A DNA stretch of 20,688 nucleotides from a virus: the IMG/VR virus record IMGVR_UViG_3300046533_001021, positions 1 to 20,688 of that record, one strand, 5' to 3'. Below, piece by piece: positions 990 through 19,638 of the stretch (position 1 is its first letter; each line of letters starts with the position of its first letter). Position numbers and translations under genes: made by a program. A model generated the notes under the pieces. It was not told the origin of the DNA. It ran no database searches and saw nothing but the letters and a program-made list of their open reading frames with translations.

Positions 990-1113
990 GTGCCGAGTAA
1001 AAAATTTAATTACCATTACGGTAAGGCTATATAATTTTGTTGTCAAATAGGCAAAAATTAATTTTTATTTAATGGGTAGGTTTGTTATGGTCGCCGTTTT
1101 AAAGAGGTGCGCT

Positions 1114-1323
1114 ATGAATTGGATATCAATTGAAGACTTGTTTCCGCCAGAGGGCGAAATAGTGCTATGTTGCGATAAGCATAATGAGTTTGTAACGATT
1201 GGCCGCATGAATATGGATGAAGATGGGCAACAAGGATGTTTTGAGCTTATGTGGATAGAAGAGGTTCAACTTGATGCTCAGATTACCCACTGGATGCCAA
1301 GGCCTAAGCCTGCAAGAGGATAG
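1114..1323 (+). CDS. DUF551-type small protein, copy A
   Basis: This 69-residue protein opens with MNWISIEDLFPPEGEIVLCC and ends THWMPRPKP. The pattern WIS-x-D-x-x-P-x-x-G at the start and HW-M-x-x-P-x-P at the end is the signature of DUF551, a family of small phage-encoded proteins of unknown function. The ATG at 1114 was preferred over upstream codons because AGAGGTG lies just before it and because the copy at 1673 starts with the same MNWIS. It is first in a tightly packed plus-strand operon: its TAG touches the ATG of the next gene. A possible promoter (TTGTCA at 1040-1045 with an AT-rich stretch around 1064-1069) lies upstream, weakly supported. Confidence 0.75.
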   Translation: MNWISIEDLFPPEGEIVLCCDKHNEFVTIGRMNMDEDGQQGCFELMWIEEVQLDAQITHWMPRPKPARG

Positions 1324-1491
1324 ATGATTAACGATATTATGCCGCCTTGGATTTTTCCAACAGTTCCAGTCGTTAAAGTATTCGATAAAAACAAAAATGG
1401 TTACATCGAAGGGTACTATTGCTTTGAGACACAAGCATGGAAAAACACGAAGGGAATCAAGGTTATGACAACAGGATGGAAATACAAATGA
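1324..1491 (+). CDS. 55-residue hypothetical protein
   Basis: A short frame starts at an ATG directly after the previous stop, with AGAGGATAG as ribosome binding site. It encodes 55 residues beginning MINDIMPPWIFPTVPVVKVF and ending TTGWKYK, rich in aromatic residues. Its TGA overlaps the next ATG as ATGA, so translation is probably coupled on both sides. No family is recognised. The clean spacing, good ribosome binding site and overlaps support a real gene despite the short length. Confidence 0.6.
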   Translation: MINDIMPPWIFPTVPVVKVFDKNKNGYIEGYYCFETQAWKNTKGIKVMTTGWKYK

Positions 1492-1673
1492 AAGACAAGA
1501 TTAACGAAGTCTTAGAGGTATTGGATGAAATCGCGTCGATACTACATGAAATGAATGTTGATGAAACTCCTATCCTGAAAGAAATCTGGAAAGCAGAAAA
1601 GATCCTTGACGATATGAAAGGAGAATTTGTTTCTCATTCATTGCCAGATGCGCCTAAAGAGGAAGTGAAATAA
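1488..1673 (+). CDS. 61-residue acidic helical hypothetical protein
   Basis: The frame could start at 1437, but the ATG at 1488 is favoured: it forms an ATGA overlap with the previous stop and has AGGATGG upstream. The product starts MKDKINEVLEVLDEIASILH and is a charged, amphipathic helical protein, probably a short coiled coil, ending in a Pro/Glu-rich tail. Its TAA overlaps the next ATG as TAATG. No known family is recognised. It sits between the two DUF551 genes, a typical place for small early phage proteins. Confidence 0.6.
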   Translation: MKDKINEVLEVLDEIASILHEMNVDETPILKEIWKAEKILDDMKGEFVSHSLPDAPKEEVK

Positions 1674-1888
1674 TGAACTGGATTAGCGTTAAGGATAGAT
1701 TACCTGATTTTGGAAAAGAATATATTTTCTTCACAGGCAAGCAAGAAGTAACTGTCGGATCAGTTTTTGCACATGAAGAGGCTGGGGGTTACGCATGGAT
1801 TAGTGACTCGCTTTCAGAAAAAATAGAAATAGCTCGCTACTGGATGGAATTACCGAAACCTCCAGAAGATAAAGAGGGGACGGGATGA
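1673..1888 (+). CDS. DUF551-type small protein, copy B
   Basis: This 71-residue protein begins MNWISVKDRLPDFGKEYIFF and ends with ARYWMELPKPPED. This is a closer match to the DUF551 consensus (WISVKDRLP at the start, a W-x-x-LP-x-PP end) than copy A. The function of DUF551 is unknown; members are common in tailed phages and prophages. The start is fixed by the TAATG overlap with the previous gene, and the end overlaps the methyltransferase start by four bases. It is probably a diverged tandem paralogue of the gene at 1114. Confidence 0.8.
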   Translation: MNWISVKDRLPDFGKEYIFFTGKQEVTVGSVFAHEEAGGYAWISDSLSEKIEIARYWMELPKPPEDKEGTG

Positions 1889-2631
1889 ATGGCTTGGATT
1901 TGTTCAGTGGAATCGGAGGGATGTCACTTGCATTGCAACCCTGGGTTAACCCAGTCGCTTACTGCGAAATCGACCGCTATTGTCAAGCGGTATTGTTGTC
2001 TCGAATGGCACACGGAGATTTACAACCCGCTCCAATTTGGGACGATGTGCAAACACTCGGAAAAGAATCAGGGACATTTCCTAAATCTTTCGTTGATATC
2101 ATATATGGCGGCTTTCCATGCCAGGACATTAGTATTGCAGGTCATGGAAAAGGCTTGGAAGGAGAGCGAAGCGGCCTTATTTATGAAATATTCAGACTGG
2201 CCAGAGAACTTAATCCCTCCTTCATTTTCTTGGAAAATGTCCCGGCAATCACAACCAGAGGCGGTTTGGCATTGGTCAAAGAAATTACCTCGATGGGGTA
2301 TGATTGTCGATGGTGTATTATATCCGCTGCAAGCATTGGAGCGTCACATAAAAGAGAAAGATGGTTTCTCTTGGCCCACACCCCGAGCGAGCGATGCAAA
2401 AAGACAAGACAGCCCCTGCGATCGAAAGCGAAACAGTCCGAGCTTATCAACAAAATTGAATATAGTAAGTGGGACCAAGAACCAGAAAATAAATTTGAAC
2501 TGGCTCGAGTGGTTAATGGGTTACAAGACAGGACACACAGAATTAAAGCCCTGGGCAATGCAGTGGTTCCGGCTCAGGCCAAAGAAGCCTTCAAAATCCT
2601 GATGGGTTTAGATGACGAGGGGATGGGATGA
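1885..2631 (+). CDS. DNA (cytosine-5-)-methyltransferase
   Basis: The enzyme transfers a methyl group from S-adenosylmethionine to C5 of cytosine. It most likely protects phage DNA from host restriction, since no partner nuclease is adjacent. All key motifs are visible in 248 residues: motif I LDLFSGIGG (4-12), motif IV GGFPCQ with catalytic Cys79, motif VI ENV (117-119), motif VIII KRERW (156-160) and motif X ALGNAVVP (222-229). The target-recognition region between motifs VIII and X is short, about 55 residues, as in compact phage enzymes, so specificity cannot be read. The start is set by the ATGA overlap with the DUF551 gene and a GAGGGGACGGG stretch upstream. A second frame in the same DNA stays open for 238 codons and also resembles a phage protein family. 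Confidence 0.93.
   Translation: MNGLDLFSGIGGMSLALQPWVNPVAYCEIDRYCQAVLLSRMAHGDLQPAPIWDDVQTLGKESGTFPKSFVDIIYGGFPCQDISIAGHGKGLEGERSGLIYEIFRLARELNPSFIFLENVPAITTRGGLALVKEITSMGYDCRWCIISAASIGASHKRERWFLLAHTPSERCKKTRQPLRSKAKQSELINKIEYSKWDQEPENKFELARVVNGLQDRTHRIKALGNAVVPAQAKEAFKILMGLDDEGMG
1889..2602 (+). CDS. Overlapping open frame inside the methyltransferase gene, WPTP/EWLMG-type
   Basis: In the second frame of the methyltransferase gene an ATG four bases downstream opens a 237-residue frame without a stop, across almost the whole gene. Its C-terminal 105 residues carry LPRWGMIVDGVLYPL (133-147), WPTPRASDA (162-170) and LNWLEWLMGYKTGHTELKP (203-221). These resemble a phage protein type with LPRSGM, WPTPxASD and LNPxWVEWLMG motifs that I recall from many phage genomes next to or inside dcm-like genes. 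The same DNA in the methyltransferase frame encodes motifs VIII and X, so both frames look constrained. Whether the frame is translated is unknown: it shares one ribosome binding site with the methyltransferase, and residues 1-100 resemble nothing. Treat it as a possible overlapping gene. Confidence 0.35.
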   Translation: MAWICSVESEGCHLHCNPGLTQSLTAKSTAIVKRYCCLEWHTEIYNPLQFGTMCKHSEKNQGHFLNLSLISYMAAFHARTLVLQVMEKAWKESEAALFMKYSDWPENLIPPSFSWKMSRQSQPEAVWHWSKKLPRWGMIVDGVLYPLQALERHIKEKDGFSWPTPRASDAKRQDSPCDRKRNSPSLSTKLNIVSGTKNQKINLNWLEWLMGYKTGHTELKPWAMQWFRLRPKKPSKS

Positions 2632-2671
2632 AAGTCTGATAAAGTAAAAAATTGATAGTAAGGTTGTTGCA

Positions 2672-2887
2672 ATGAGTGATTTTGAAGAAACAAATAAAAA
2701 AATATGCCGCGCCCTGTTAGAGAAACATGGAAAAATATCTTCTTCGCTTGTTCAGTTGAAATGCCGCGTGTCTTTTCATTATGCTAAAATCCTGATTGCA
2801 CAGATTCATCAAGAACGAGCAATCGAACGCTGGAAAGACAAAATTAGCTCTTGCGAAAAAGAAGGAGTTTTGATCGGGCAAAAATGA
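2672..2887 (+). CDS. FtsK-gamma-like winged-helix DNA-binding protein
   Basis: The 71-residue product contains KHGKISSSLVQLKCRVSFHY followed by AKILIAQIHQERAIE. This matches the FtsK gamma domain pattern, in which SxSxLQRxFxIGYNRAxxLxxxLE forms a winged helix. In FtsK that domain reads KOPS sequences and contacts XerD; stand-alone copies occur in phages and plasmids with unknown roles. Here the domain makes up the whole protein, with no motor or membrane part. AAGG sits seven bases before the ATG. It follows the methyltransferase after a 40-bp gap and may be a transcriptional regulator or a DNA-marking factor. The fold call is from pattern only. Confidence 0.5.
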   Translation: MSDFEETNKKICRALLEKHGKISSSLVQLKCRVSFHYAKILIAQIHQERAIERWKDKISSCEKEGVLIGQK

Positions 2888-3003
2888 AAAAATGCAACAG
2901 AAGATATATTATCAGACTGTGAAAAATATATCTATGTCCTTTCTTCAACTTCGCTTTTTGACTGTCATGGGAATAATTTAACAATAACATATTTTGGAAT
3001 TTT

Positions 3004-3402
3004 ATGGATCTAGAATTTATTGCACGTGCCAACGAAATGGCAAAACCTGTTTGGGATGAGTTTAGAGAAAATCGACGTCTTATAATCGCTAAATGGAATG
3101 ATGACAATCGTGTTAAATTACGAAAACTTATTAAAGAATATTCTCAGACTGAAAAAGGGAAATTAGCTTCTAAAAAAAGGTCAATAAATCGTCGACTTCG
3201 CTTTAAGAAAGCATCTGAGGGTTTGAGTAAACAAGAAAAAAGAGATATAGCGGAATTTTATAAAAATTGCCCTGAAGGTTACGAAGTAGATCATATTGTA
3301 CCAATCTATAAAGGTGGGATACATCACTTAATCAACCTTCAGTATTTGACCCCAGAAGAAAATAGAAAAAAACACATCACATGTGAAGAATGGATTGATT
3401 AA
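3004..3402 (+). CDS. HNH endonuclease
   Basis: The 132-residue protein has a basic helical N-terminal half (KLASKKRSINRRLRFKK region) and a C-terminal HNH motif. In the motif EVDHIVPIYKGG supplies Asp96-His97, HHLINLQYL supplies Asn111, and ENRKKH supplies His124. HNH enzymes cut DNA using one metal ion. Those in phage genomes are either homing nucleases or packaging partners. This one lies in the accessory block rather than beside TerS, so a free-standing homing-type nuclease is plausible. No clear ribosome binding site precedes the ATG at 3004, so a later start (the next Met is residue 12) is possible. A 116-bp gap with an AT-rich 8-bp stem (2903-2932) precedes it. Confidence 0.8.
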   Translation: MDLEFIARANEMAKPVWDEFRENRRLIIAKWNDDNRVKLRKLIKEYSQTEKGKLASKKRSINRRLRFKKASEGLSKQEKRDIAEFYKNCPEGYEVDHIVPIYKGGIHHLINLQYLTPEENRKKHITCEEWID

Positions 3403-3421
3403 AGAAATACCCTGAGGAAAT

Positions 3422-3643
3422 ATGCAAAAAATAATTCAGAAACTTGAATACGACTTATCGTTGGTTTATCGAAATATCGATGATACAGAGCATTCAATCG
3501 TTGTCGCTTTAGAGGATAACAAGATGAGAGAAGAACACTTGGTTAAATATCATCTGGAGGCTAGAGACTTAGAGAAAGCCCTTGATATGCTATCAGGAAA
3601 CACATTAACCCAACCCCAGGAACAAGATGCAAGACAAGAGTAA
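3422..3643 (+). CDS. 73-residue helical hypothetical protein
   Basis: The ATG at 3422 has TGAGGA six bases upstream. The product starts MQKIIQKLEYDLSLVYRNID and is charged and almost entirely helical, with a polar Gln-rich tail. It looks like a short coiled-coil protein. No family is recognised. It overlaps the next gene by 17 bp. Good ribosome binding site and overlap support expression. Confidence 0.6.
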   Translation: MQKIIQKLEYDLSLVYRNIDDTEHSIVVALEDNKMREEHLVKYHLEARDLEKALDMLSGNTLTQPQEQDARQE

Positions 3644-3863
3644 ACAATGTGACGAACTGTACACGAAGTTAAAAGAACACTTTATGGAATACGAAAATGA
3701 GATAACAATGGAAGTGCTTTGCTCGACCCTTGGTTTTTGTATTACCCAGTTTAGTAATCAGCAAGAGGCATTGGGCGGAGTACTTGGCAAGATCGTTTAC
3801 TATCTCAGCTCGTACCAAAGAGACCAAGAACTAGAACGTCTTACAGAAAAACCAGAAGTCTAA
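3627..3863 (+). CDS. 78-residue hypothetical protein upstream of parA
   Basis: The ATG at 3627 is preceded by AGGAACAAG and lies inside the end of the previous gene. The product begins MQDKSKQCDELYTKLKEHFM and has a hydrophobic middle (VLCSTLGFCITQF, then LGGVLGKIVYYLSSY). It could be an amphipathic helical bundle rather than a true membrane protein. No family is recognised. The gene ends just before the palindromic region upstream of parA. Confidence 0.6.
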   Translation: MQDKSKQCDELYTKLKEHFMEYENEITMEVLCSTLGFCITQFSNQQEALGGVLGKIVYYLSSYQRDQELERLTEKPEV

Positions 3864-3880
3864 TATTTGTATCTCTAGTG

Positions 3881-3911
3881 ATATCGGTATGGATACCGAT
3901 ATATCTATCGG
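3881..3911. promoter_or_regulatory. Candidate parS/operator upstream of parA
   Basis: ATATCGGTAT at 3881-3890 and ATACCGATAT at 3893-3902 form a perfect 10-bp inverted repeat with a 2-bp centre. It overlaps CGATATATCTATCGG at 3897-3911. A 14/15 match to that second element occurs in reverse orientation just after parA (4604-4618). Such sites around ParA/RHH cassettes usually serve as centromere and autoregulatory operator bound by the small partner protein. The assignment to partition is inference. Confidence 0.5.
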
Positions 3912-3974
3912 CATGACCATCACTATGGCTATTTATATTTGTCCTTATTTATACTCCGTAAAAACGGAGGATAT

Positions 3975-4610
3975 ATGATAACGGTAGTAGGTGGAACTAA
4001 AGGTGGAACGGGCAAAAGCACCACAGCAATAAACTTAGTTGTTTTGCTATCCCAAGCGGGTAAGCGCGTCTTGTTAGTTGATGCGGACGAACAAACAACC
4101 TCATCGATTATAGTTAATCAGCGCATAGCCAATGGCACGCCTTATCAGTGGGTTACTCTTCGTCTGACAGGCAAGGACATGCATAAGCGTTTACTTGAGC
4201 TTGAGCCTAAGTATGACCACATCATTATTGATGTTGGCGGGCGAGATACGAATAGCCAGCGTTCTTGTCTTTGCGTTGCTGATAAGTATGTGATTCCCTT
4301 TAGGCCAAGATCTCTAGACTTGTGGAGTGTTGAGGATATCAATAAAATGCTTGATGATGTTTTGAAAGCCAACCCAGATTTAACAATCTATGCTTTCATA
4401 AATCAAGCGGACACAAGCGGAAAAGAAAACGAAAATGCCTTGGAATTCTTAAAACAATCTGATCGTTTCATTTGCCTGGAATCAATGGTCGCTAATAGAA
4501 AAAGCTTTGGTTACTCACTTGACGATGGGTTAGGGATAAACGAAATGAAAAAGAAAGACAAAAAAGCCGTGCAAGAAATGACGGACTTATATAAATGTAT
4601 CTACCGATAG
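3975..4610 (+). CDS. parA: ParA-family partition ATPase
   Basis: ParA ATPases bind DNA non-specifically in their ATP form and move plasmid DNA bound by a partner to opposite cell halves. The 211-residue protein starts MITVVGGTKGGTGKSTTAIN, giving the deviant Walker A KGGTGKST (9-16) with both signature lysines. The switch-type VLLVDADEQ follows, then HIIIDVGGRDT, a Walker B region typical of the subgroup found on plasmids, integrative elements and phage-plasmids. The ATG at 3975 has CGGAGG six bases upstream; a longer frame from a TTG at 3939 lacks such support. There is no N-terminal DNA-binding extension, so this is a small ParA (type Ib-like), which normally pairs with a ribbon-helix-helix protein; one is encoded next. 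Inverted motif copies flank the gene. Confidence 0.88.
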   Translation: MITVVGGTKGGTGKSTTAINLVVLLSQAGKRVLLVDADEQTTSSIIVNQRIANGTPYQWVTLRLTGKDMHKRLLELEPKYDHIIIDVGGRDTNSQRSCLCVADKYVIPFRPRSLDLWSVEDINKMLDDVLKANPDLTIYAFINQADTSGKENENALEFLKQSDRFICLESMVANRKSFGYSLDDGLGINEMKKKDKKAVQEMTDLYKCIYR

Positions 4611-4623
4611 AGATATCGATATC
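4604..4623. promoter_or_regulatory. Candidate second parS/operator after parA
   Basis: CCGATAGAGATATCG at 4604-4618 is the reverse complement, with one change, of the motif at 3897-3911. It overlaps the perfect palindrome GATATCGATATC at 4612-4623. The site covers the parA stop and lies 17 bp before the start of the ribbon-helix-helix gene, a good position for autoregulation or for a centromere half. Function is inferred. Confidence 0.45.
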
Positions 4624-4639
4624 AATATAGGAAATGGAA

Positions 4640-4936
4640 ATGGTCAAAGCGATTCAAAAAGTAATTGATCCTAAGTGGATAGAACACGCAGTTAATGGCG
4701 GTGCAGATATTAAGTCTGATAGGCAAGAGCAACTTGAAAAAGAACTGCTCGAAGCGAAGAAAGAATTATTAAAGTTGAAGACCAGGAAGTCTAAGTTTGT
4801 TCATTTGCGTCTACCTAGTGAGCTGCTTGCTGAAATAGATAGGCAGGTCAACGAGGATCAATATGAATCACGCAATCAATGGATGATCGACGGATTAGAA
4901 TCGCTGTGTACTTCTAAGAAATCACGGAAAAAATAA
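4640..4936 (+). CDS. Ribbon-helix-helix partition partner of ParA
   Basis: The protein of about 98 residues has a lysine/glutamate-rich helical N-terminus, then KFVHLRLPSELLAEIDRQV and a second helix around SRNQWMIDGLESL. This is a ribbon-helix-helix fold: a beta strand with alternating residues, PSELLAEIDR helix, and S/R-N-x-W-x-x-x-GL helix. Small RHH proteins such as ParG-like factors bind the centromere, activate the ParA ATPase and repress the operon. An ATG at 4634 is also possible; 4640 has better spacing from AGGA. The gene lies 29 bp after parA and next to the GATATCGATATC palindrome. The family is clear; the partition role comes from context. Confidence 0.75.
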   Translation: MVKAIQKVIDPKWIEHAVNGGADIKSDRQEQLEKELLEAKKELLKLKTRKSKFVHLRLPSELLAEIDRQVNEDQYESRNQWMIDGLESLCTSKKSRKK

Positions 4937-5235
4937 TGATATTGACGGGTTTAGCTATAGCAACAATTGGGTTTTTCAATGTTTTGGTATTGTATAAAGC
5001 AGGTAAAAACCTAGAGAAAGAACTTTATTCAATGCACGCTGCTATTTTAGAAACGAAAGCAGCTTACAGAAACATAAGATGCTCGATAGAATACATTGAA
5101 AGACATCAGCAAATGATCTACTCCTCTATTTCTAAATTCTCCGACCGTGAGTGCGGAAATAAGAATCCGCCTGCGACTGAGTTACCGACTGAGACTCATC
5201 CGTGCAAAGAGAAAGACCTAAACAGAGATATCTAA
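4936..5235 (+). CDS. 99-residue single-pass membrane protein
   Basis: The ATG overlaps the previous stop as TAATG. Residues 1-20 (MILTGLAIATIGFFNVLVLY) form one hydrophobic membrane segment. A charged helical stretch follows to about residue 67, then a Pro/Thr/Glu/Cys-rich tail. No family is recognised. Its last 104 bp overlap, on the opposite strand, the end of the terminase nuclease gene, so the two operons run into each other. Confidence 0.55.
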   Translation: MILTGLAIATIGFFNVLVLYKAGKNLEKELYSMHAAILETKAAYRNIRCSIEYIERHQQMIYSSISKFSDRECGNKNPPATELPTETHPCKEKDLNRDI

Positions 5236-5932
5236 ATGCGTCACAACAATGGCTATGCTCATCATGAGAAGGCCTACCGGACCACATTCCCAGGGATGAA
5301 TCCCATTTCTGGGTATAGTTTTCTAGATGATGGACAAGCTTTAAAACATTGTCATTGTTGTGAAAGAAAAACTTAGAAAAATTATTTCTAACGCAATCGA
5401 TGCCATCAGCTAAGGAAACGTCTGGCACTAAAACAAACTGGACTCCGAGTTTTGCTGCGGTGTCTATACGTGATACACCTGTGCTATATTCATGGACTTT
5501 CAAGTCATGTGGGCCTAAATGCGTGCCTAAATGATAATCCTTCTTGTGCACCATCTTGCAATAATCAGCTAGTGAATGGCCTGAGCCTTCAATAAAATCT
5601 ATTATGTGAACTTCTTTGCCAACTATCTGAAAGAAGATAATGCAATTATGATCTGAGAAGCCTAAGTCCCAACTTGTATGAACTCTAAGCGTGGGTTCTT
5701 CAGGAATATGCAATATTCTTTTAGAGTTACGCGCTGCGCTAACATGAGCGGCATAGTAAAGGCCATTCATGTTAACTTCAAAGGCTTCTTCTGGAAAGCT
5801 AGGATACTCTTTTTTCATGGCATCTTGAAGCACTTCATGCTTCTTGATGTACCATGACTTTTGAGCATCCGTTAGCTTAATGCCACGCTGAGCTAAGGAC
5901 TCGAAGTAAGCTTTGTAATAGTCTGTTGTCAT
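5132..5932 (-). CDS. Terminase large subunit, nuclease half (separate gene)
   Basis: This 266-residue protein corresponds to the C-terminal RNase H-like nuclease domain of TerL, which cuts concatemeric DNA at packaging start and end. After a helical linker (TTDYYKAYFESLAQRGIKLT) come YPSFPEEAF (43-51), SWDLGFSDHN with acidic Asp89, VHIIDFIEGSG with Asp112, and HCCDAFRYL with Asp231: the expected three-acid arrangement. No Walker motifs are present; they are in the gene at 7239-7940. An in-frame TAA sits directly before the ATG, so this is not one interrupted frame. The start overlaps a 30-residue peptide gene as ATGA. Together the halves total 499 residues, a normal P22-like TerL length. The last 25 residues or so extend past the conserved fold. 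Confidence 0.88.
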   Translation of the reverse strand: MTTDYYKAYFESLAQRGIKLTDAQKSWYIKKHEVLQDAMKKEYPSFPEEAFEVNMNGLYYAAHVSAARNSKRILHIPEEPTLRVHTSWDLGFSDHNCIIFFQIVGKEVHIIDFIEGSGHSLADYCKMVHKKDYHLGTHLGPHDLKVHEYSTGVSRIDTAAKLGVQFVLVPDVSLADGIDCVRNNFSKFFFHNNDNVLKLVHHLENYTQKWDSSLGMWSGRPSHDEHSHCCDAFRYLCLGLSLCTDESQSVTQSQADSYFRTHGRRI

Positions 5933-6021
5933 TTAAGAATCTTATAGCTCAGGTAAAACCAACTCAAACTAATCAGTGTAAATAGAAGCATCCCTGAAAA
6001 GATTAGATCATTGGTTACCAT
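5929..6021 (-). CDS. 30-residue membrane peptide
   Basis: A tiny frame starts MVTNDLIFSGMLLFTLISLS and ends YKILK, one hydrophobic helix with a basic C-terminal end. TGGAGAACAG precedes the ATG, one of the better ribosome binding sites in the window. The TGA overlaps the start of the terminase nuclease gene as ATGA, and the start overlaps the end of the gene upstream. It may serve as a leader that couples translation into the nuclease gene, a holin-like peptide, or both; this is inference. Confidence 0.5.
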   Translation of the reverse strand: MVTNDLIFSGMLLFTLISLSWFYLSYKILK

Positions 6022-6268
6022 CTGTTCTCCACTCTTCCATTATGCCAAGTCCTATTGCAGGCTCTTCAACTTTCACCGCTGGGTAACCATTCTCTTCAAC
6101 AACTATTGCGCATATGCGATCTTTAACAATGCACATATTAGCTAAATGGATATACTTATTGTTTCCTATCAGCAGCTCACTAAATATCTGCTCATTGCTC
6201 ATATTCTCACGCGGGGTCGCAGTAAGAACCTGATTGTTCTCTAGGTATATCACTATTCTTGGCGTCAT
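6008..6268 (-). CDS. 86-residue hypothetical protein in the terminase-splitting cassette
   Basis: The frame is open from 6325, but the ATG at 6268 (MTPRIVIYLENNQVLTATPR) has AAAAAGGC upstream and shortens the overlap with the preceding gene. The product looks like a small alternating-strand fold with an acidic end (EEPAIGLGIMEEWRTDGNQ). No signal or membrane segment is seen. No family is recognised. It is the fourth gene in the cassette between the terminase halves. Confidence 0.5.
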   Translation of the reverse strand: MTPRIVIYLENNQVLTATPRENMSNEQIFSELLIGNNKYIHLANMCIVKDRICAIVVEENGYPAVKVEEPAIGLGIMEEWRTDGNQ

Positions 6269-6422
6269 CGAATGCCTTTTTAATTTGTTTAAAATCTCTT
6301 TCAATTTGTTGCTGTACATATCCACGAGCTACATCCCATTTAATGCCGCAACTAGATATTTTTTTCTGAAGTTCTAGATAGGTTATCATTAAACGACCAA
6401 TATCATGATCTAAGTTAATCAT
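6207..6422 (-). CDS. 71-residue helical hypothetical protein in the terminase-splitting cassette
   Basis: Its ATG overlaps the stop of the coiled-coil gene as TAATG. The product starts MINLDHDIGRLMITYLELQK and is polar and helical, ending in a flexible SGSYCDPA tail. No family is recognised. It overlaps the following gene by about 60 bp if that gene starts at 6268. Confidence 0.5.
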   Translation of the reverse strand: MINLDHDIGRLMITYLELQKKISSCGIKWDVARGYVQQQIERDFKQIKKAFDDAKNSDIPREQSGSYCDPA

Positions 6423-6973
6423 TACTTCTTAGCCTTTGGCTTTGATCCAAAGCCTTTGAAGTATGCGTCTACTCGATCAATATGATTCTCAAATTGACGT
6501 TGTATTGATTTAACGTGTTCAAGGGACGCTTTGTCGGATATCACATTCTTTAAGCTTTCAATGTCCTTTTCTATTTTCTTAACAAAGATGCCTGCTGCGG
6601 GCAAAATGTCATCACAGAATTCATCAAATTCTTTTAGCTTTTCCTTTTGCTTATTGACTTCACGCCAGATAGTTTCCAAGTCTTTCTTGAGTTTATCTTC
6701 GTCTTCTTTTTCCCAGATATCTCGTTCTTTAAGATATTTATCTATGTAAGAAACTTTATTGCAATCTGCTTCTAAAAGATCCAATCTATCTCTGTGATTT
6801 TTAGAAGAATACTCCAAGTTTTGAAAAGAATACTTGTTAACTCCATTTAATATACTTGTTAAATAATCATAGTTTTTCTTTAGCTTTTCGATCTCGTTCA
6901 AACGATTAGTCATCATATTGAATAGCGTAGCAATACAGACAATACAGACAACAAAAGCAAAGGCTTCTAACAT
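6422..6973 (-). CDS. Membrane-anchored coiled-coil protein (possible inner-membrane spanin)
   Basis: The 183-residue protein begins with one hydrophobic segment (LEAFAFVVCIVCIATLFNMM). About 150 residues of charged heptad-type sequence follow, ending in a basic GSKPKAKK tail. One N-terminal anchor plus a long periplasmic coiled coil is the plan of Rz-type inner-membrane spanins, which act at the last lysis step. The ATG has GGAGAAACA upstream and overlaps the end of a lipoprotein gene by seven bases. The spanin idea rests on this pairing only; gene order is lipoprotein first, unlike lambda Rz/Rz1, and the coiled coil is long. It could equally be a structural or superinfection-exclusion protein. 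Confidence 0.6.
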   Translation of the reverse strand: MLEAFAFVVCIVCIATLFNMMTNRLNEIEKLKKNYDYLTSILNGVNKYSFQNLEYSSKNHRDRLDLLEADCNKVSYIDKYLKERDIWEKEDEDKLKKDLETIWREVNKQKEKLKEFDEFCDDILPAAGIFVKKIEKDIESLKNVISDKASLEHVKSIQRQFENHIDRVDAYFKGFGSKPKAKK

Positions 6974-7218
6974 TGTTTCTCCACTTTTTCTTCTTGGACT
7001 TGGGCTTCTACTTCAGTAGTTTCATCACATTCAGGTGCTGGATAAGAAAAAACATTCAGATGAATGATCGTGCTTTTCTCTTTTGGATCGGACTTTTGCT
7101 GTACAGTTAGGTCAACCACTTCTTCAATAGATGGTCTTTCGTTAACTGTTCTGGTATGGGGCAAGGACATGCAACCTGATAGGATCAGTGTTGATATAAC
7201 TAAACATAATTTAAGCAT
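6967..7218 (-). CDS. Small outer-membrane-type lipoprotein (possible outer spanin)
   Basis: The 83-residue product starts MLKLCLVISTLILSGCMSLP: a short signal sequence ending in the lipobox LSGC, so signal peptidase II should cleave before Cys16. The mature part is acidic, Pro- and Glu-rich, and ends in Cys. AAGGAG stands ahead of the ATG, 18 bp after the stop of the terminase ATPase gene. A short phage lipoprotein overlapping a membrane-anchored coiled-coil gene suggests an outer spanin, but the homology cannot be read by eye. Confidence 0.65.
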   Translation of the reverse strand: MLKLCLVISTLILSGCMSLPHTRTVNERPSIEEVVDLTVQQKSDPKEKSTIIHLNVFSYPAPECDETTEVEAQVQEEKVEKQC

Positions 7219-7238
7219 TTAAGATTCTCCTTATTTCT

Positions 7239-7940
7239 TTAGGTATTGGATTCAAGCATATATTGCGGGTGTTGCCACCACGGTAGAAAGAATAGTTTAA
7301 AGTCCAGAGCGGTAAGAGCCTTGCCTTGCGCCTGCGCGTCTTGGCATTTTTTAACCATGTTATAGAAGTGTCCCTCTCTACCCTCGGCCGTCGATTCAAT
7401 CGTAATAAACTGGCCAACGTCGACCGTGTTGAGCGCACCTTCGATGATCTCATTTGCTTTGGTGGGAAACTCTCTGCATATCTTGCCGAATTCACTAATG
7501 TGAAGCAGTTGGACCGTACCAGATCGCAAGGAGTGTGATACGCGGTAGACAGACCCGTTACTAAAACGTAATTCGTTAGTATTGTCTCGATAAGCTTGCA
7601 CAAGGCCTTTGATGCGGGGATGTAAAGAGTCATAGGCATATTTCACTTTGTCTTTGAAAATTTCTCTTGAATTTTCCGCTCGGTCTGTAACAATAGCTGC
7701 GTTAATGTTTGTGTTCCAAAGGCAGTGATCAAGGTAGTAGATTGCAAAGAAGGTGGTAATTCCCAATTGGCGAGCTTTGAGTATGATGTTGAAATTGTGC
7801 ATATCGTTGAACAGAATCTCTTGCGCCCAATTGAGATTAAACTTAACTTTTTGGCCTTTCTTATTCTTGATATAATAGAGGTTTTCGAGTCTCCATCGTC
7901 TATCTTTAAGCAATACCTTTTCTTCATCAGTGAACTTCAT
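7239..7940 (-). CDS. Terminase large subunit, ATPase half (separate gene)
   Basis: This 233-residue protein is the packaging-motor ATPase domain. It shows an N-terminal adenine-binding region (FNLNWAQEILFND), a Walker A-type KARQLGITT (55-63), Walker B LLHISEFG (145-152) with catalytic Glu, and the coupling motif ESTAEG (182-187). It ends FLPWWQHPQYMLESNT and stops exactly where the linker to the nuclease domain would begin. The linker resumes in the gene at 5132-5932. The start overlaps the TerS stop as ATGA, so it is coupled to TerS. The gene is clean, with no sign of a frameshift near the end; the break looks like an insertion fixed as two genes. Confidence 0.9.
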   Translation of the reverse strand: MKFTDEEKVLLKDRRWRLENLYYIKNKKGQKVKFNLNWAQEILFNDMHNFNIILKARQLGITTFFAIYYLDHCLWNTNINAAIVTDRAENSREIFKDKVKYAYDSLHPRIKGLVQAYRDNTNELRFSNGSVYRVSHSLRSGTVQLLHISEFGKICREFPTKANEIIEGALNTVDVGQFITIESTAEGREGHFYNMVKKCQDAQAQGKALTALDFKLFFLPWWQHPQYMLESNT

Positions 7941-8329
7941 TTGTTAACGGGATTGCGGTTGGTATCAAACAAGTCGTCATTCGTATCGGTTACTATTACT
8001 TCTTTAGTTTCGCGTTGGCCAAGGTAAACTTTTCCAAGCCAAATAAGCATAGTTACGTTGCCTTTCATGGCTGCTTTGTATTGCAAGCGTCTAAGGGATT
8101 GTTTACCAACTTCCCTCCCTTCTTTTAATATCTCTGAAAAGTGGTTGTCTAGGGTGTCGGGATGACACTTAACGACTGCCGCTATTTCTTCTCTTGTGCA
8201 GAGTATTGCAGCCAAAGCCCTAACTTGCTCAGCATCGATCTTATCGGCCTTATGACAAATAATCCGTTTCTTAGCATTAGCATCTAGTTTCTCGCGCTCT
8301 TCCTTGGTTGCTCTGTGTCTTTTAGGCAT
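7937..8329 (-). CDS. Terminase small subunit
   Basis: TerS recognises the packaging site and passes DNA to TerL. The 130-residue protein starts MPKRHRATKEEREKL, then has a helix-turn-helix (LAAILCTREEIAAVVKCHPD) and the pattern SLRRLQYKAAMKGNVTMLIW followed by LGKVYLGQRE, typical of small terminase subunits. The start at 8329 has GGAGGAAA ten bases upstream and a sensible basic N-terminus; an upstream start at 8359 has no such support. It lies directly before the ATPase half of TerL, the usual order. The ending TNDDLFDTNRNPVNK is likely the flexible TerL-contacting tail. Confidence 0.88.
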   Translation of the reverse strand: MPKRHRATKEEREKLDANAKKRIICHKADKIDAEQVRALAAILCTREEIAAVVKCHPDTLDNHFSEILKEGREVGKQSLRRLQYKAAMKGNVTMLIWLGKVYLGQRETKEVIVTDTNDDLFDTNRNPVNK

Positions 8330-8699: not shown

Positions 8700-8949
8700 T
8701 TGCGTGGAATGCCTCTTCGTTTCGTTTCCAATAATGGACCTTGGCTTTCTCAGGTAGCCTATAGCCATCCCAATTATGGCCTGTCCACCAGCCTTTTACG
8801 GTTTTCGTTATGTCTGTCTTTAGATCAAGCAGGTCAAAGTCTTCAGGGAGCCATGTTGTTGCATCAACCCATCCGTCGTAATCTTTCTCGCAATCACCAT
8901 ATTGCCAAAGTTTGCCCTTAGACTTGGGAGTTCCGACCTTGCGAATCAA
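8692..8949 (-). CDS. 85-residue hypothetical protein with TTG start
   Basis: A TTG at 8949 overlaps the previous TGA, and GGAGAG stands seven bases upstream, so a TTG start is well supported. The product has a Trp-rich middle (YDGWVDATTWLPEDFDLLDL, then GWWTGHNWDGYRLPEK). The alternating Trp and acidic residues suggest a compact fold. No family is recognised. The gene is between the ParB-like gene and another unknown in the packaging operon. Confidence 0.55.
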   Translation of the reverse strand: MIRKVGTPKSKGKLWQYGDCEKDYDGWVDATTWLPEDFDLLDLKTDITKTVKGWWTGHNWDGYRLPEKAKVHYWKRNEEAFHANV

Positions 8950-9602
8950 AGAAGCTCTCCGTTTTTCTTAATCGTGTATTCTTTACCATTAGACTCCATG
9001 TAGTTCCGCCAACGTTCAATAACTGCTTCTGCTATCTCCGCACTTGTCATAAGCAAAACAGGGAATTCACCGCGGATACTAGGATCGAAAACAGAAACAT
9101 CAGTGCAATCAACACAAGCAAGTGCATGCTCGTTGAGATGGTAAACATCGCCAACAGAACAGCTCTGTTCGGATTCGATACTCTCCTCCAGAATTGTATT
9201 ATCTTCTTTTTCAAGGCTATCAATCTTAAGATCATTTTCGGTCATCCCTAGTTCTAATAGTTCGGCAGGATCACATAACGCAGACAGCAAGTCCCAATCA
9301 AATTCACCATGATGTACGTTGTCTTGGATGGAACGCTTTTTAATGATTGCTCCATCTAAAGAAAAATCAACAATGCACGGTATGGTCTTAAATCCGAGTT
9401 TCTTGGCGGCACGGACACGTTGCGAACCAGCATAAACAGTATGAAGACCATTGACTAGATTGACAAGCACAGGCCGCTTGTTTAGGAAGTCGGGATCTTC
9501 TTTGATGCTTTTGCAAAGCTTCTCGAATTGATTCTTTGTAATCTTACGGGGGTTATCATTCGGTAATGTTAGTATGGATATATCTATTGGTTCAATCGTC
9601 AT
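8946..9602 (-). CDS. ParB/Srx-domain protein with collapsed DNA-methylase remnant
   Basis: Residues 1-110 form a ParB-like domain: NPRKITKNQFEKLCKSI, then PVLVN and the nucleotide-binding-type box VYAGSQRVRAAKKLGFKTIP. In many phages this domain is fused to an N4/N6 DNA methylase located just upstream of terminase. Here the linker SVGDVYHLNEHALACVDCTD matches the usual GDVYxLGxHRLLCGDCTD lead-in. The sequence then jumps to the usual last helix, AEIAEAVIERWRNYMESNGK, so the SAM-binding fold and catalytic DPPY motif are missing. The frame is intact and 218 residues long. It may have kept only the ParB function (DNA binding or nuclease). The ATG at 9602 has no clear ribosome binding site. Confidence 0.8.
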   Translation of the reverse strand: MTIEPIDISILTLPNDNPRKITKNQFEKLCKSIKEDPDFLNKRPVLVNLVNGLHTVYAGSQRVRAAKKLGFKTIPCIVDFSLDGAIIKKRSIQDNVHHGEFDWDLLSALCDPAELLELGMTENDLKIDSLEKEDNTILEESIESEQSCSVGDVYHLNEHALACVDCTDVSVFDPSIRGEFPVLLMTSAEIAEAVIERWRNYMESNGKEYTIKKNGELL

Positions 9603-10313: not shown

Positions 10314-10643
10314 ATGCAGAAAACTCATAATCCCTTTGATACATCTTTTATTCAACCTACTGCTAAAAGTGCCGAATTCGTTATGGATAGGGTTTGGAAA
10401 AAAATTCAATCTAAATATCACGATCGACCTGACTTAATCCTTGTAGGATGGAAAGAAATTGTCGGTGAGCGCATAGCTCCTATGACAGAAGCTAAAGAAT
10501 TTGTTGATGGCATATTATATGTGAAAGTGCACAACTCTTCAACTTTGCAAAACTTTCATATGACAAAACAACATTTACTTCAAAAAATACGGCAACGTTT
10601 TAAAAGCGTTAAGATAGATGATATAAAATTCTCAATGAAGTAG
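10314..10643 (+). CDS. DciA-like (DUF721) replicative helicase loader
   Basis: The 109-residue protein fits DUF721: a helical start, DLILVGWKEIVGERIAPMT matching W-x-x-x-VG-x-x-x-A-x-x-T, then VDGILYVKVHNSSTLQNFHM matching the DG-x-L-x-V-x-V strand pair. It ends with IDDIKFSMK. DUF721 proteins are DciA, the ancestral bacterial factor that loads DnaB onto single-stranded DNA; most phages carry DnaC-type loaders instead. AAGGA lies seven bases before the ATG. A DnaB helicase is encoded at 18184-19638, so the element may bring its own helicase-loader pair. The short domain-only form with an N-terminal NPFDTSFIQPT segment resembles DciA of chlamydia-like bacteria, from memory. Confidence 0.75.
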   Translation: MQKTHNPFDTSFIQPTAKSAEFVMDRVWKKIQSKYHDRPDLILVGWKEIVGERIAPMTEAKEFVDGILYVKVHNSSTLQNFHMTKQHLLQKIRQRFKSVKIDDIKFSMK

Positions 10644-17444: not shown

Positions 17445-17565
17445 GATTAACTCCGTTTGTAAAGAAAAGATAGATAACAGACATAACATTTTCAAACAAT
17501 AAGTTTGTGTGAAATTTTGAATTTAATATATGAATGCTTACTGGCATTACACAAAAAGGAAACCC

Positions 17566-17835
17566 ATGACAATCAATCCGACAAAAGACAATGTTTTAAT
17601 AGAGACGATTCCAACCCCAAAAAATACCACACTCATCATGCTTGAACCTAAGCAAGCGGACACAGACAATATGTCCTATCGCGTTTTAGCATGTGGACCC
17701 GAAGTTAAAACTGTAAAGGTTGGCGATAAAGTATTAGCACCGCCACTCGGTGGCTATGTGCTTAGAGAAGACAAAAACAAAGAGACAGTCAAAAGAATAT
17801 TTTCAGAATCATTCATTTTGGCTGTTGTAACTTAA
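17566..17835 (+). CDS. GroES-like co-chaperonin
   Basis: The 89-residue protein fits GroES: start TINPTKDNVLIETIP (the strand of the beta barrel), a mobile-loop region (TPKNTTLIMLEP), YRVLACGPEVKTVKVGDKVL (GxG-VKVGDxV pattern) and end SESFILAVV, like the GroES C-terminal strand. The start at 17566 follows AAGGAAA; an upstream in-frame ATG at 17530 is less likely. GroES caps the GroEL ring during folding; phage versions such as T4 gp31 change chamber size to fold the capsid protein. The hydrophobic tripeptide LIM in the loop could be the GroEL contact. No GroEL gene is present, so it would work with the host chaperonin. Confidence 0.85.
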   Translation: MTINPTKDNVLIETIPTPKNTTLIMLEPKQADTDNMSYRVLACGPEVKTVKVGDKVLAPPLGGYVLREDKNKETVKRIFSESFILAVVT

Positions 17836-18183: not shown

Positions 18184-19638
18184 ATGAACTTAACAATGCC
18201 CACAGCCACAAAAGCTGAAGAGGTTTTGCTTGCGCGTATGCTGAAATCAGTAAACGCGGTTAACCTAGCGATCAATTCTTTAAACGAAAACGATTTCTTC
18301 GATTCAAGGAATAAAGCAATTTTTTCCTGCATGTTCATTGCTTATCAAAACAATCAAAAGATCGAGCCGCTTAGTATTGTGGCCTCTCTTGAGCAGAAGT
18401 TTCCTAAGCTTTCCGATCCTCAATATGTCATTGGCCTTCCATTAATGCACGGCTGGGGGGATGAAGATGAAGTTAAGGAATTCATTGATCAGATAAAGAA
18501 AGCTTCGCAATATCGGCAGATGATGCAGATTGCAACCCTGACTTTAAAGAAAGCTGCGGAAGGCGACGATAACCCCGAAGACGTTCAAGCATTTGCAATG
18601 CAAGAGATGGAGCGCGTTTTTTCTGAATCTGCAAGCGCAACAACACGAACTCTTGAAGCTGAAGCCGACTTTATGGATTCTGGACTTGGATATCTTGATT
18701 TCATTAAGAAACAACAGATCAATAGCGCAAAGGGAATGCACACCTATCAAGGTATGCCGACCGGTTTTACACAATTAGACGATGCGTTATCGGGTATTTG
18801 CCGTGGGCATTTTATTATTATTGGTGCGCGTCCTGGCGTTGGAAAGACTACCTTTGCCTTAAACCTTATTCATCAAATGGCATTGATGGGAATTAAAATA
18901 GGATTTTTCTCTTTCGAAATGACAGCAGATGAAGCGATGCACAAGCTTATCTGCTTGCAAGGTCGAGTCGATCAGCAAAAAGCGATGCGTGGCATGATTA
19001 ACAGCATGGAATACAACGAGGTAATGAACTCTTATCATGAATGCAAAAGACTGCCGATTTATATTGAAGACCAATCACCTCTAAAAATAAGCCAAGTAGT
19101 TGCAAGAACCAAGCGCATGATAGCAACATTTGGGATACAGGTTCTTTTTGTCGATTACTTAGGTGAGATAAAGGGAGATGGTAAATTTACAAATAAGCAA
19201 GAAGAAATACAAATGGTATCGCGGGGGCTTAGGCAATTAGCTAAGGCTATGCGTATTCCTATAGTTTGTATTTGCCAGCTTAACCGTGAAGCCGAGAAAG
19301 AACAGCGTGCACCAAGAAAATCAGATTTGCGAGAATCTGGACAGATCGAGGCGGATGCTCACAGCATTCTTATGCTTCATCAAGAGGCTAAACAACAAGT
19401 GGGACATGTCACGATTCCTAAACAGAATAAAATCAGTGAAGATGATTATGCAATGGAAGGAAAGCAGCTCGACATTGACAATACCGTAAGCTCAAAGATG
19501 ATACTTTACATAGTAAAAAATCGTTTTGGTGCTCAAAGGAAAATAGAATATCAATTTGATGGATCTAAAGGACGCTTTACAGAAATGTCAAGCATGAAAG
19601 AAAATATCAATGAACTAAGAAATAGATTTTCTGAATAG
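18184..19638 (+). CDS. dnaB: Replicative DNA helicase, DnaB family
   Basis: The 484-residue protein is a hexameric 5'-3' helicase that unwinds DNA at the fork. The N-terminal domain (1-150) starts AEEVLLARMLKSVNAVNLAI and FFDSRNKAIFSCMFIAY, as in DnaB. A linker follows, then the RecA-like motor: Walker A GARPGVGKT (214-222), FFSFEMTADE, Walker B VLFVDYL (320-326), CQLNRE (364-369) and DLRESGQIEADAHSILML (381-398). The length is normal and all motor motifs are intact. AGGA lies six bases before the ATG. It ends the early operon, and with the DciA-like protein (10314-10643) and Rep it makes a nearly complete initiation set. Confidence 0.95.
   Translation: MNLTMPTATKAEEVLLARMLKSVNAVNLAINSLNENDFFDSRNKAIFSCMFIAYQNNQKIEPLSIVASLEQKFPKLSDPQYVIGLPLMHGWGDEDEVKEFIDQIKKASQYRQMMQIATLTLKKAAEGDDNPEDVQAFAMQEMERVFSESASATTRTLEAEADFMDSGLGYLDFIKKQQINSAKGMHTYQGMPTGFTQLDDALSGICRGHFIIIGARPGVGKTTFALNLIHQMALMGIKIGFFSFEMTADEAMHKLICLQGRVDQQKAMRGMINSMEYNEVMNSYHECKRLPIYIEDQSPLKISQVVARTKRMIATFGIQVLFVDYLGEIKGDGKFTNKQEEIQMVSRGLRQLAKAMRIPIVCICQLNREAEKEQRAPRKSDLRESGQIEADAHSILMLHQEAKQQVGHVTIPKQNKISEDDYAMEGKQLDIDNTVSSKMILYIVKNRFGAQRKIEYQFDGSKGRFTEMSSMKENINELRNRFSE

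Follow-up and report, generated by a model that had tools for sequence, protein, structure and literature searches.

The virus record IMGVR_UViG_3300046533_001021, a 20,688-base stretch that was analysed whole and is called the window below, comes from a tailed phage seen as a metagenome contig alone. Its minus strand carries a packaging operon that runs from a ParB-like gene through two unknown open reading frames (ORFs) and a small terminase subunit (TerS) candidate to a gene for the ATPase part of the large terminase subunit (TerL), and from there through five small ORFs to a gene for the TerL nuclease. The two parts of TerL, referred to here as chain A and chain B, are separate genes with an insert between them. 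The features of the operon are as follows.

8946-9602, minus strand: ParB-like gene, start of the packaging operon
Between the ParB-like gene and the TerS candidate, minus strand: two ORFs, unknown
7937..8329, minus strand: TerS candidate, 130 amino acids (aa), matching phrog_309 (E = 1e-6) and coupled to chain A
7239..7940, minus strand: TerL chain A, ATPase core, 233 aa, with the deviant Walker A K55-ARQLGITT, catalytic E150 and ESTAEG (182-187)
5933..7238, minus strand: insert between chains A and B, 1306 nucleotides (nt), G+C 35%
7216..7224, minus strand: direct repeat TCTTAAATG, 5' copy (insert edge at the lipoprotein start)
6967..7218, minus strand: small lipoprotein, 83 aa, with the lipobox LSGC; its ribosome-binding site, AAGGAG, is a good one
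6422..6973, minus strand: membrane-anchored coiled-coil protein, 183 aa, overlapping the lipoprotein gene
6207..6422, minus strand: ORF of 71 aa, unknown, coding-like codon usage
6008..6325, minus strand: ORF of up to 105 aa, unknown, GTG start; the true start may be later
5929..6021, minus strand: possible membrane peptide, 30 aa, its stop overlapping the nuclease start (ATGA)
5930..5938, minus strand: direct repeat TCTTAAATG, 3' copy (insert edge at the nuclease start)
5132..5932, minus strand: TerL chain B, predicted lid helices (about residues 1-53) and RNase H-fold nuclease (about 55-245), 266 aa

The coordinates, lengths, strand, motifs, gene order and coupled starts given in an earlier note on this DNA agree with the ORFs, and each half, as that note proposed, is recognisable as TerL on its own. 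In profile searches, chain A matched the terminase family phrog_2 (E = 2.5e-23) and chain B matched phrog_6672 (E = 8.7e-6); chain B also matched phrog_2472 (8e-51), the first positions of which match the end of chain A as well. Searches with tblastn gave 276 phage-record matches for chain A and 323 for chain B. Chain A retains the Walker A segment K55-ARQLGITT, which is deviant in having no Lys after the Gly, together with E150 and the motif III sequence ESTAEG, and the ASCE ATPase fold of TerL is present: the model of the fused TerL of the nearest relative, L291, aligned with the T4 gp17 ATPase domain over 246 residues (Z score 19.8, root-mean-square deviation (rmsd) 3.5). The acidic residues D89, E115, D143, D224 and D231 of chain B are kept. 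Its predicted fold (mean predicted local distance difference test score (pLDDT) 87) starts with lid helices and continues into the TerL nuclease fold, and this model aligned with the D6E TerL nuclease over 168 residues (Z 19.2, rmsd 2.5) and with the P22 nuclease (Z 17), which places the C-terminal RNase H-fold nuclease of TerL in chain B. The structure-search lists (Foldseek, VIA) also held many unrelated DEAD-box rows, reflecting the shared ATPase core only.

Joined end to end, the two chains (233 + 266 = 499 aa) align with fused TerLs with zero residues lost or gained, the junction ESNT/MTTDYYKAYF lying against DPVE/QLPERLCEYF, so that the normal TerL length described earlier holds. They are not one polypeptide, the two ORFs lying 1306 nt apart. 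Both junctions are well-formed gene ends, TAA-AAGGAG-ATG on one side and an ATGA overlap on the other. Chain A ends in YMLESNT and a TAA, followed by AAGGAG and, 20 nucleotides on, by the start of the lipoprotein gene. The ATG of chain B overlaps the stop of the 30-aa ORF and has an in-frame TAA directly upstream, so the nuclease cannot start earlier. The split itself is real in the sequence.

Among relatives, TerL is one gene. A single open frame was found in 264 of the 267 loci in which both halves were found; these loci include duplicate views of one contig, and 206 distinct complete fused proteins remain. All relatives read out in detail encode TerL as one gene. The one-frame loci include L291, whose fused TerL is 68% identical to the window in the ATPase and 44% in the nuclease; by identity, the nuclease is nearest to L178 (46%). 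The relatives with a fused gene that the earlier note suggested looking for were thus plentiful, but none had the same split: no second copy was found among the 347 fetched loci, in 60 of the 447 matching phage records sampled evenly down the ranking (all one-piece), or among 234 genomes of one Parachlamydiales order, of which 22 match and most of the well-matched ones have a fused TerL. Fused orthologues in relatives, together with split copies that are complete and jointly full-length, are the pattern of genes in pieces.

The three exceptions to a one-frame TerL are of other kinds. One, in an IMG-derived viral contig (L029:4267-5759), is a frameshift after the ATPase motifs, either a sequencing error or real. 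In the other two, L100:1669-3138 and L313:141-1586, the TerL frame contains TGA codons (4 and 6, respectively), several of which fall where relatives have Trp; their ATPases are 58-60% identical to that of the window, and these phages appear to read UGA as tryptophan although the rest of their clade uses the standard code. A Parachlamydiales-order genome contains a lone TerL nuclease fragment (L383:5479-6898, minus strand) that directly follows an acetyltransferase-like ORF and has an RHS-like gene nearby. It was considered as a second split and rejected: it is cut near residue 219, a different break, and is a chromosomal prophage remnant.

To locate the break, we used the predicted structure of the fused L291 TerL (mean pLDDT 83), which has the same residue numbering as the window over the ATPase. 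The break, 233/234, falls in a loop that follows strand 216-219 and precedes helix 237-248. Residues 1-286 of the L291 model align with the ATPase domains of T4 gp17 and P74-26, and nuclease-domain structures align from 286-290 onward; the break therefore lies inside the ATPase domain, between the core and the lid helices. By these models it is about 53 residues ahead of the inter-domain linker, and the lid goes with the nuclease chain. The earlier statement that the ATPase half ends exactly at the linker does not hold. Its picture of two well-formed cistrons with conserved motifs stands, but not the division into motor and nuclease. In 210 of the 264 fused loci, the spacer between the extrapolated ends of the two halves was 0 or 1 residue, with a range from -5 to 8, so the loop at the break varies in length among relatives. 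Similarity to the window ends at residue 284 in many Vibrio and Stx phages, whose nuclease is a different one, and in other phages it starts only at 284-289, in agreement with a domain boundary there. Relatives thus swap nucleases at residues 284-289, joining ATPase-plus-lid modules to differing nuclease modules.

Self-splicing introns are known in terL, in ICP1 (PMC10448857) and in Jug phages (PMC12363816), and a divergent intron that carries small genes could in principle restore one TerL here as well; the halves fit as exact exons, and annotated stops and starts can fall inside introns. We found no Rfam match to a group I or group II intron in the insert, either in a search of the whole insert or in narrow searches of both of its ends. 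The narrow searches were added because the ICP1 TerL intron escaped a wide search but was recovered by a similarly narrow one (E = 1.6e-9); the ICP1 TMP introns were found as well (3.5e-19). The insert is coding nearly throughout, with no non-coding stretch of about 200 nt left free for a ribozyme core, and it has no endonuclease. An intron in the insert is therefore unlikely, and splicing back to a single chain in the manner of ICP1 seems to us very improbable. Neither of the boundaries, intron or intein, that the earlier note named as restoring one chain was detected: an intein or split intein is ruled out by stops in all frames of the insert and by the lack of extra residues on the halves. 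Recoding or readthrough is ruled out by the nature of the break, a TAA and then 1.3 kb, and translational bypassing by an insert far too long, the gene 60 hop being the yardstick. Excision of DNA between the 9-nt repeats would leave the TAA and two cistrons, and so would not restore one chain.

The insert (35% G+C, compared with 41-43% in the halves) is coding nearly end to end, with sliding codon-usage scores that pass from the lipoprotein frame to the coiled-coil frame and on to those of 71 and 105 aa. Five genes had been described there; four of the ORFs have coding-like codon usage, and the 30-aa ORF does not. Apart from one weak match of the coiled-coil protein in one relative (E = 8e-4), no homologues of the insert were found in phages, plasmids, viral contigs or the fetched relatives; the lipoprotein had none in the phage collection, and none was found for the 105-aa ORF. 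The lipoprotein and coiled-coil pair resembles an outer and inner spanin pair in architecture and may be one, with only a weak spanin profile match (E = 0.038) and a gene order reversed relative to the usual Rz/Rz1. A lipoprotein gene is not supported as a usual neighbour of TerL (4 of 31 loci, compared with 3 of 31 in the antisense control). No endonuclease, recombinase or ribozyme is recognisable in the insert, and no homing endonuclease domain is found there that would point to such an enzyme as the inserting element. A free-standing HNH endonuclease gene (window 3004-3402, plus strand; phrog_1035, endonuclease VII, E = 3e-9) is found about 1.7 kb beyond the split TerL and may be left over from past homing.

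The insert lies between two copies of a 9-nt direct repeat, TCTTAAATG. A shared 9-nt stretch occurs in about 0.4% of random segment pairs, and the repeat was noticed after the fact, so its meaning is suggestive only. A deletion made on paper between the two copies leaves ATPase-TAA-AAGGAG-ATG-nuclease, a tidy bicistron, which suggests that the gene may have been split first and that the cassette arrived later.

We then asked whether the two halves look like working genes. Of the columns at least 90% conserved among relatives, chain A keeps 45 of 49 and chain B 31 of 36, at the low end but within the range of intact relatives (ranks of 10% for the ATPase and 9% for the nuclease), and codon usage is coding-like in both. 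The ATPase branches of the window and L291 are about equal (0.32 and 0.34). The nuclease frame has no stops, despite the many changes that it has probably undergone. In simulation, 60 neutral amino-acid changes left the frame open in 3% of cases and 114 in none; neutral changes would have brought stops, and the open frame argues for selection on the nuclease chain, to an extent that depends on the age of the split.

The main rival is that the insertion destroyed TerL, and that the window is a defective phage, a decaying prophage or defective particle genome, carrying a recently dead gene. TerL is essential, a split T4 gp17 does not translocate, the nuclease half evolves faster, and truncated TerL remnants exist in chlamydial chromosomes, as in L383. 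In this window, by contrast, both frames are open with conserved motifs, neat starts and stops and coding-like codon usage in both halves, and the other phage genes are intact as far as visible. We regard a dead gene as unlikely, though with a probability that has to be taken seriously.

The trees of the two halves bear on where the nuclease came from. FastTree and other quick trees placed the nuclease near L178, and a quick approximately unbiased (AU) test rejected the grouping of the window sequence (WIN) with L291 for this half (p = 0.007). These quick AU tests were unstable and were replaced by fuller IQ-TREE searches, in which WIN+L291 was not rejected for the nuclease (AU p = 0.32). The halves may nevertheless have different histories. 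One form of this would be a domain swap, in which the nuclease chain and the cassette came from another phage to supplement or replace the original nuclease in partnership with the resident ATPase. The nearest relatives by identity differ between the halves, the quick tree agreed, and relatives do swap nucleases; those swaps occur at residue ~284, whereas the exact fit here is at 233/234, which is not a place where swaps are seen, and the fuller search leaves the common grouping standing. We consider such a swap distinctly unlikely. An assembly chimera, with two phage genomes or strain variants wrongly joined, would also make the half trees disagree on the nearest relative, and the record is a metagenomic contig whose insert is lower in G+C. 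Against this, the junctions lie exactly at gene ends with overlapping start and stop, one strand is used throughout, no residue is lost or gained, and a single ancestry of both halves is not rejected in the fuller search; a chimera is improbable.

The explanation that we favour, with a probability of roughly 55%, is a fissioned TerL of the genes-in-pieces type, in which two chains assemble non-covalently. Several points weigh against it. The split is seen in one contig, with no second example. The nuclease branch is longer than that of L291, at 0.79 compared with 0.33 when the two are held together, and relative-rate tests gave a faster nuclease with most outgroups but not all; this could reflect relaxed constraint. 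Finally, T4 gp17 cut at the linker keeps its ATPase and nuclease activities but loses translocation (PMC3012670).

Under a fission model, a fused ancestor like L291 would have been broken in the variable-length loop between the ATPase core and the lid subdomain. Perhaps a stop codon, a ribosome-binding site and a start codon arose in the loop first, and a cassette of small accessory genes later lodged at the nuclease start codon. One operon would then yield two polypeptides, chain A as the ATPase core and chain B as the lid with the RNase H nuclease; translation of chain B would be coupled to that of the preceding ORF. The lid would dock on the core non-covalently, and its ATP-driven movement would reach the nuclease/translocation domain through the unbroken linker. 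In the TerLs known so far, the lid shifts against the core on ATP hydrolysis, and the movement is passed to the other domain via the linker or the lid (PMC7617512). As the path from lid through linker to nuclease is kept covalent and only the connection between core and lid is cut, a non-covalent contact between core and lid could suffice. More tentatively, the whole may be a working two-chain motor in which the lid, together with linker and nuclease, moves as a single unit and docks on the core non-covalently, with chain B output set separately via translational coupling downstream of the accessory genes. Because the lid travels with the nuclease, the nuclease chain would also be needed for ATP-driven movement, which makes a simple independent dosing of cutting and translocation, as the earlier note envisaged, less likely on these models.

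Elsewhere in the window, an opposite-strand block of about a dozen accessory genes (1072-5235, plus strand), among them a cytosine methylase, the HNH endonuclease and a ParA-like ATPase, separates the TerL nuclease gene from a P22-like portal gene and is thus a second interruption of the packaging module. The window also encodes a DciA-like protein of the DnaB loader family (10314-10643, plus strand; Pfam E = 2e-13), a GroES-like protein (17530-17835, plus strand; E = 1e-5) and a DnaB helicase (18184-19638). Many TerL relatives lie in Parachlamydiales-order genomes (L244, L245, L247, L248 and L351-L363), and the phage may infect chlamydia-related bacteria.

TerL is essential and near-universal in tailed phages, and models of DNA translocation turn on how its two parts are coupled. 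The fused TerLs of the same clade (L291, L178, L097 and that of Hafnia phage Pocitis76) are homologous to the window proteins over both halves and share the same motifs, but each is one polypeptide of about 496-499 residues with no genes inside. The T4 gp17 construct is a two-chain TerL too, cut after the lid, whereas the window is broken before it. From a natural split ahead of the lid it would follow that lid, linker and nuclease have to remain one piece and that the contact between core and lid can be non-covalent; if both pieces work together, this would be a natural two-piece version of a motor whose linker cut halts packaging in T4. In Parabacteroides phage phiPDS1, the TerL domains were reported as separate coding sequences and left unexplained, the authors suspecting the genetic code or the assembly (PMC10773633). 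The arrangement is alike in the separate coding sequences of the two domains and differs in that the text of that paper describes no inserted cassette. The terL genes of ICP1 and Jug are likewise two ORFs with a stop and a start between them; there a group I ribozyme restores one chain (PMC10448857, PMC12363816), whereas none was detected in the window. A working split TerL would be evidence that accessory genes can build up within an essential gene that has neither intron nor intein. NrdA of Aeromonas phage Aeh1 and gp43A/43B of phage 25 work as two chains (PMC2988022), and these enzymes, together with T4 topoisomerase, are likewise essential phage enzymes laid out in two cistrons by inserted DNA. 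Their inserts are homing endonucleases or untranslated spacer, whereas the window has small orphan genes as its insert, and its split enzyme, the packaging motor, would join the phage enzymes that tolerate gene fission.

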